DNA from: a virus
Virus record (IMG/VR): IMGVR_UViG_3300024895_000012
Coordinates: 1 to 36,208 of that record
Length of the DNA: 36,208 nucleotides
Strand: one strand, 5' to 3'
A program made the translations under genes and the position numbers. Below the pieces are notes generated by a model, which worked only from the letters and a program-made list of their open reading frames with translations, did not search any database and was not told the origin of the DNA. Shown here in pieces: positions 28,023-28,666 of the stretch. The stretch's first letter is position 1. The number at the start of each line of letters is the position of its first letter.

Positions 28023-28397
28023 ATGGAAAACGACATCGGCAAGTTCATTAAATCTAGGCTTAAAGAGCTGAAAAAAACTCAGGGATGGCTTGCTGAAAAA
28101 GTAGACGTATCTAACGTAGCTGTTACTAAATGGATAAAATCAGGCCAAATATCTAGAGAGAATGTAATGGCAGTTGCTAATGCATTACACGTTCCTGCTG
28201 ATATGTTGCTTGGCGGTAAAGATATAACTATTCAAAATGAATTTGAACGTCAACTAATATTATTCTTCAGGGGCATGTCGTTAGACCATAAAGACGATTT
28301 ACTAAGTATTGCTAATAATCTGTATAACTTGGATGTGCCTAATAACAAGCTGTCTAACCCTTTACCATTGCCACCTGTGAAAAGAGAAACACAATGA
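28023..28397 (+). CDS. cI: CI-like repressor, short form without a peptidase domain
   Basis: A 124-residue protein. Residues 5-62 form an XRE-type helix-turn-helix (KTQGWLAEKVDVSNVAVTKW, then ISRENVMAVANALHVPADML). The C-terminal part is a helical segment (EFERQLILFFRGMSLDHKDD) and a Pro-rich tail. The LexA/S24 self-cleavage domain of lambda CI is absent, so induction by RecA-stimulated cleavage is not expected. It is divergent from the Cro-like gene and presumably binds the TTAAC-N5-GTTAA sites. The next gene overlaps its end by 4 bases. Confidence 0.85.
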   Translation: MENDIGKFIKSRLKELKKTQGWLAEKVDVSNVAVTKWIKSGQISRENVMAVANALHVPADMLLGGKDITIQNEFERQLILFFRGMSLDHKDDLLSIANNLYNLDVPNNKLSNPLPLPPVKRETQ

Positions 28398-28666
28398 AAA
28401 AACTATTTATTGCTTTATTATCTTTAATATCACTATCAGCCAGTGCAGAAAACTTTGTTGTGGCCCAGGTTGATTACACTTGTATAAATAATTGCTCGAG
28501 CAAGGGTTATCAATATGGATATTGCCAATCTATTTGCTCATATAACGATAACAACCAATCTTATTCACAGCCGCAGCCAGTAAAGCAGATTGATTATGCC
28601 TGCGTGAATGATTGCACCAATAAAGGCTATCAATACCAGTATTGCACTTCTAAATGCTCGTTCTAA
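28394..28666 (+). CDS. Secreted protein with two cysteine-rich repeats, lysogenic-conversion candidate
   Basis: A 90-residue protein with a classic signal peptide (KKLFIALLSLISLSASA, cleavage likely after Ala18). The mature part has two repeats with the same C-x3-C-x9-C-x3-C spacing, each reading DY.C..NC or DC, KGYQY.YC and ending CS. They are joined by a Gln/Asn/Ser/Pro linker. The four Cys per repeat suggest disulfides in the periplasm or outside the cell; the CX3C pairs recall helical hairpins. It is coupled to the CI-like gene by ATGA and followed by a strong terminator, so it should be made in lysogens. No family known to me; envelope protection or superinfection exclusion is speculative. 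Confidence 0.8.
   Translation: MKKLFIALLSLISLSASAENFVVAQVDYTCINNCSSKGYQYGYCQSICSYNDNNQSYSQPQPVKQIDYACVNDCTNKGYQYQYCTSKCSF

Follow-up and report, generated by a model that had tools for sequence, protein, structure and literature searches.

The DNA stretch analysed here in full, a window of 36,208 nt recording a temperate phage (36 kb), encodes directly behind its CI-like repressor a small protein with two four-cysteine repeats (the Cys protein, from the Cys gene). On our best reading, this gene would be a lysogen-expressed, exported accessory "moron" that takes the place of rex in an immunity region organised like that of lambda, with superinfection exclusion as its likeliest function. Our confidence in that full statement is evenly divided, exclusion being its least certain step. 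The features on which it rests, together with genes found behind related repressors, are collected in Table 1.

Table 1. Features of the window and genes behind related repressors; positions refer to the sequence named in the second column.
Feature	Sequence	Position	Strand	Remarks
Holin-like gene	window	1385-1750		far from the Cys gene
Cro-like repressor	window	27715..27930	-	first gene of the leftward early operon; Pfam YdaS_toxin 81 bits, P22_Cro 37 bits; phrog_35
Candidate left operator 1, TTAACTACAGGTTAA	window	27939..27953	+	pattern TTAACYNNNRGTTAA
Candidate left operator 2, TTAACTCTGGGTTAC	window	27974..27988	+	pattern TTAACYNNNRGTTAA, 1 mismatch
CI-like repressor	window	28023..28397	+	124 aa, HTH only; Pfam HTH_3 28.9 bits; phrog_8 transcriptional regulator
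Cys gene, predicted exported double Cys-hairpin protein	window	28394..28666	+	90 aa, ATG start
Predicted signal peptide, MKKLFIALLSLISLSASA	window	28394..28447	+	inspection and crude export score
Repeat 1, C30-C48	window	28481..28537	+	predicted helical hairpin; helices 28-36 and 41-48 in whole-protein model
Repeat 2, C70-C88	window	28601..28657	+	predicted helical hairpin; single-repeat model mean pLDDT 88
Intrinsic terminator, AGCACCTTCGGGTGCT and T-run	window	28684..28699	+	directly downstream of the Cys gene
Candidate right operator 1, TTAACCTAAAGTTAA	window	28723..28737	+	pattern TTAACYNNNRGTTAA
Candidate right operator 2, TTAACCTGTGGTTAA	window	28758..28772	+	head of the rightward early operon (genes from 28900)
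Slot protein	L166	793-1074		93 aa; signal peptide
Slot protein	L168	2937-3368		143 aa; lipobox LSGC
Slot protein	L169	3040-3501		153 aa; signal peptide; Pfam Adhesin_E (Surface-adhesin protein E) above cutoff
Slot protein	L170	3213-3416		67 aa; signal peptide or anchor
Slot protein	L171	2979-3350		123 aa; signal peptide
Small protein, predicted exported	L174	2950-3675		directly after homologous repressor; unrelated
Small protein, predicted exported	L175	3018-3389		directly after homologous repressor; unrelated

The Cys gene lies directly 3' of the repressor gene on the same strand, its start overlapping the repressor stop by 4 nt (ATGA). Searching the 36 kb for the palindrome TTAACYNNNRGTTAA with at most one mismatch returned just four sites, two between cro and the repressor and two past the Cys-gene terminator, a number that none of 100 shuffled sequences reached. 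Three other immunity types (L003, L005 and L118), with different repressors and operators, show the same layout with a homologous Cys gene, and their palindromes are CTTAGNNNNCTAAG in L003 (three sites; 2 of 200 shuffles reach three), GTTAAGTNNACTTAAC in L005 (four sites) and ATAGGNNNNCCTAT in L118 (four sites). In all four immunity types these putative operators are confined to the two spacers flanking the repressor and its downstream gene or genes; since the patterns were picked after the spacers had been read, the counts test location and rarity rather than discovery. The right-hand sites of L118 and L005 overlap promoter-like TTGACA-17-TATTAT/TAACAT elements read from the spacers. The window terminator stands ahead of the rightward early operon, and UUCG-type stem-loops like it, with different stems, occur in L003 and L005, where the gap between repressor and Cys gene is 2 nt; the terminator search found no perfect stem after the L118 Cys gene. 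Because candidate operators flank the repressor, Cys gene and terminator together, the Cys gene very probably belongs to the immunity region, at the place taken in lambda by rexAB. These results bear out the coupling to a CI-like gene and the strong terminator of its own that a first-pass annotation of this DNA had described.

The ORF of the Cys gene is real. Its predicted signal peptide, read by inspection as MKKLFIALLSLISLSASA|EN, agrees with the clear one named in that annotation and was positive in a crude export score of our own construction, calibrated on no training set and no stand-in for SignalP, which also scored 15 of 175 background ORFs positive (nine loci, slot genes included). 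The protein had been described as two copies of an eight-Cys repeat; two repeats are indeed present, but each has four Cys (C30, 34, 44, 48 and C70, 74, 84, 88), eight being the total. Two C-x3-C-x9-C-x3-C spacings arose in about 4 of 100,000 shuffles of the mature part, which contains the eight Cys, and the two repeats are 67% identical in DNA. Between the L003 and L005 copies dN was 0.027 and dS 0.177, on which ground we judge the Cys gene to be under purifying selection.

In IMG/VR, a locus identical to the window (L001) and four further loci (L002-L005), whose Cys-gene copies are 54% identical and stand directly after S24-type repressors, were found. The order in L118 is S24 repressor, 91-aa putative lipoprotein, Cys gene, and no terminase or integrase of the window type was detectable on that contig. 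The annotation would have been undermined by a lack of homologs beside other repressors; they are present with three repressors of other specificity, so that objection does not arise. As an observation apart, two modules of repressor and Cys gene, L005 and L002, sit on a single 44.8-kb contig (IMG/VR 3300024982_000004), at about 5.5 kb and 40 kb. They point the same way and their repressors differ; the contig represents either two heteroimmune prophages in tandem or an assembly chimera.

Comparison of the window with L003 revealed no DNA match in the repressor and cro region and only patches of 84% and 79% in the Cys gene, with 98% identity resuming at window position 28823. The integrases of the two phages are 100% identical (window 33208-34182; G008:15632-16603) and their terminases mostly different; the two are heteroimmune and mosaic. 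The window also encodes ERF and primase-helicase proteins and a P22-like portal, the closest named relative of which is in Pseudomonas phage PAE2 (42% identity). At strict cut-offs, the repressor profile had matches in 7 of 294 genomes of the GTDB family to which L051 belongs (Burkholderiales; 1e-45) and in none of 369 genomes sampled from the whole class (1e-40), which makes a Burkholderiales host likely, though not certain. An S24 protease domain is present in the repressors of L003, L005 and L118 and was not found in that of the window; induction of the window phage may not proceed via RecA-stimulated cleavage. Elsewhere in the window, a perfect 5-bp repeat, TCTTC (5.6 copies, 26935-26962), lies within a minus-strand ORF (26882-27382), where slippage would shift the frame near the end of the ORF. 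Near the start of the rightward early operon, three tiny overlapping ORFs (29205-29393, 29390-29518 and 29515-29664), kept in L002 and L003, have products that look membrane-anchored.

Searching with the DNA pattern of the repeat, and sorting true members from many chance matches, identified distant homologs in viral and bacterial contigs, the latter including Oxalobacteraceae (L051), Rhodocyclaceae (L025, L043), Dechloromonas (L058) and Accumulibacter (L014), among others; a search for the repeat had been advised at the outset. Several members lie outside immunity regions, among replication genes (L109, L127) or next to a terminase gene on the opposite strand (L128), and by eye some appear anchored, through a lipobox (L112, L128) or a transmembrane segment (L131, L127). 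Their occurrence near replication genes and terminase and on chromosomes shows that the domain is not tied to repressors. A tblastn search with the Cys protein found no match in INPHARED phages or PLSDB plasmids, and a peptide scan of genome contigs found none of the members that the DNA pattern later recovered. A profile of the two repeats matched 2 of 369 sampled genomes in the class of Dechloromonas and 2 of 294 in the family of L051, the centre genome counted in each time, and is thus rare in the sampled genomes. Two wider viral patterns, one with T-D-Y/F that gave no matches and a second that hit one contig in which no matching ORF was found, also miss known members and are therefore uninformative on rarity. 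The Cys family is unnamed and patchy, and occurs in phages and on proteobacterial chromosomes. Separately, a similar motif, C-x3-C-x3-G-Y-x-Y-G-x-C-x3-C, was seen in long archaeal and Patescibacteria ORFs (L022, L028, L094, L055, L050), which may encode surface proteins.

To survey the slot behind the repressor, we searched with the L003 repressor alone, which returned five new contigs with 49-89% repressor identity. All five encode a different small, predicted exported protein right after the repressor (Table 1), blastp among the five proteins detected no mutual similarity, and a recognisable terminator follows the slot gene in four of them. The two closest named phages, Bordetella phage IFTN9 and Acidovorax phage AP1, also have signal-peptide proteins in the slot, that of IFTN9 matching phrog_8545 ("superinfection exclusion Sie-like", 1.5e-6). 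L166 shares the operator type of L003 and carries different cargo, indicating that cargo swaps separately from immunity specificity. On sequence grounds, the slot looks like a cargo site. Among farther repressor relatives it holds a lipoprotein in P52, a membrane-anchored protein in Shamal and RexA/RexB in KPC2phi6.1, it is empty in L189, L190, D3, SfII and Turner, and soluble slot proteins are those of L193, VarioGold, PSTCR7lys and R3177, and RexA; of seven chromosomal repressor loci, four could be read, all but L192, L194 and L195. With several farther relatives empty or soluble, we gave up the idea of an invariably exported slot product; enrichment for exported cargo applies to near relatives and is no general rule.

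We infer that the Cys gene is co-transcribed with the repressor in the lysogen. There, the repressor would shut the leftward and rightward early operons through the operators on either side, while its own transcript would read through the Cys gene and end at the terminator, so that the protein would be made while nearly all else is off; from this layout it would be the main non-regulatory product of the lysogen, as first suggested. Exported by its signal peptide, it would adopt, under the oxidising conditions of the periplasm, a fold of two small helical hairpins with two disulfides each (C1-C4 and C2-C3, by analogy) and act at the envelope, where it might impede adsorption or DNA entry of competing phages. 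That related dormant phages keep either the Cys gene or another exported protein in this place suggests that it works at the surface of its dormant carrier, possibly keeping rival phages out.

Support for this reading comes from the operator-flanked layout, found with a distinct operator sequence in every one of four immunity types, the persistence of the Cys gene though repressors differ, the unrelated exported slot proteins, the Sie-like match in IFTN9, the hairpin prediction (pLDDT 88) and purifying selection. Against it count the lack of a PADLOC match for the Cys protein, the family members elsewhere and the many farther relatives whose slot is empty or soluble. Instead of excluding phages, the exported proteins may serve host fitness: lysogenic conversion altering the envelope, adhesion, biofilm or stress tolerance in favour of the lysogen is a possibility to be taken seriously, although we put it well short of even. 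It would fit the diversity of slot cargo, including the surface-adhesin match of L169, and the occurrence of Cys-family members as bacterial chromosomal genes; it fits less well with the Sie-like match of one slot protein and with the best-known genes of this position, which exclude phages (PMC3564112).

The fold of the repeat bears on a further alternative. Across 45 repeat units, four Cys and one Gly are invariant and D, Y and Y nearly so. AlphaFold2 modelled the whole protein at pLDDT 66 with a helix pair per repeat and the single repeat at pLDDT 88 with helices at 10-18 and 23-29, the structure prediction that had been recommended, and the repeat is accordingly predicted to be a disulfide-type helical hairpin. 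Foldseek with the single repeat ranked the pollen allergen Ole e 6 (1ss3) first in the PDB (0.7 A over 21 residues, E 3.0), and neither Foldseek nor VIA-align (best Z 2.1) gave a significant fold match. The C-x3-C-x9-C-x3-C spacing is shared with Ole e 6, and Pfam Ole_e_6 (PF09253) matched all 12 members weakly (best E 8.4e-6), the best score printed, 24.1 bits, lying below the gathering score of 27.7. Alpha-hairpinins have the Cys motif XnC1X3C2XnC3X3C4Xn (PMC7191063) and are Lys/Arg-rich peptides (PMC8085091); the motif is invariant in our 45 units and the helix-loop-helix is present by prediction only, whereas the Cys family is not Lys/Arg-rich, and the Cys protein is a bacterial exported protein with two repeats. 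We therefore class the repeat, with its sub-threshold scores, as hairpinin-like in shape and not as an alpha-hairpinin. The statement that no named family has this spacing therefore stands for sequence, with no convincing match in Pfam, NCBIfam, PHROG or PADLOC, but not for fold, given the alpha-hairpinin motif and the Ole e 6 spacing.

That the Cys protein might be a secreted antimicrobial or defensin-like peptide killing competitors was raised by Defensin_2 (PF01097), whose gathering score of 20.4 bits the window protein narrowly passes at 20.8, and by a weak actinodefensin match far under its cutoff (24.7 vs 65); with arthropod defensins it shares C-x3-C-x9-C with G and GYC. However, Defensin_2 matches only 2 of 12 members (E 0.01), the four-Cys repeat has neither the first Cys nor the final C-x-C of the six-Cys pattern, the model is helical, in their mature form the proteins are close to neutral (net charge -3 to +2, pI 4.4-8.1) and no adjacent immunity gene was seen. 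We rejected the defensin reading because both the six-Cys pattern and a positive charge are missing, and consider an antimicrobial role very improbable. A lysis or virion gene of the lytic phase, read from elsewhere, is if anything less probable still, for though the relatives L109 and L127 adjoin replication genes, the window Cys gene is upstream of the terminator and outside both repressed operons, and the holin-like gene is far off. Just as improbable is a role as secreted signal or regulator in the choice between lysis and lysogeny, despite the co-location with the repressor and the precedent of Hex of phage 434, which in the same position stabilises the repressor (PMC3564112), since the product is predicted to leave the cytoplasm and its homologs are kept with repressors differing in sequence and domain content.

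Exclusion by a lysogen-made exported protein would have precedents. Rex, Hex and the 933W kinase are encoded on the repressor transcript and exclude phages (PMC3564112), and the lambdoid cI-to-n interval is described as a place where morons are common, bstA being driven by the cI promoter (PMC7067206). Like lambda rexAB, 434 hex and BTP1 bstA, the Cys gene follows the repressor on the same strand, would share its transcript and is variable accessory cargo (PMC3564112, PMC7067206), so the slot position is already known; in those papers no product of these genes is presented as small and carrying a signal peptide, sequences being compared through family searches only. Two prophage proteins that exclude superinfection from an exported or surface position are likened to the Cys protein by description (PMC3952083). 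Vibrio phage K139 makes Glo, which is soluble and periplasmic; Ltp, from the lysogeny module of Streptococcus phage TP-J34, blocks DNA injection and differs in being a lipoprotein with a Gram-positive host. What appears new is the Cys protein family and the repeated presence of unrelated exported cargo in this phage group, for neither of which a paper was found in a literature search short on subscription journals.

A broader picture can be offered tentatively, and as a whole it is doubtful: in this group of temperate phages the slot would be a swappable exported-protein cassette, forming the half of immunity that faces the envelope and varying separately from repressor specificity. The Cys-hairpin family would be one of its cargoes and would make up a novel class of exclusion protein in the periplasm. 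If this is true, the slot behind the repressor would be a place to seek exported anti-phage proteins in uncultured temperate phages, with candidates listable by position alone and without homology to known systems. It would also provide a small, probably stable, two-hairpin protein family and allow a clear test of the idea that an immunity type combines a repressor inside the cell with a barrier outside it.
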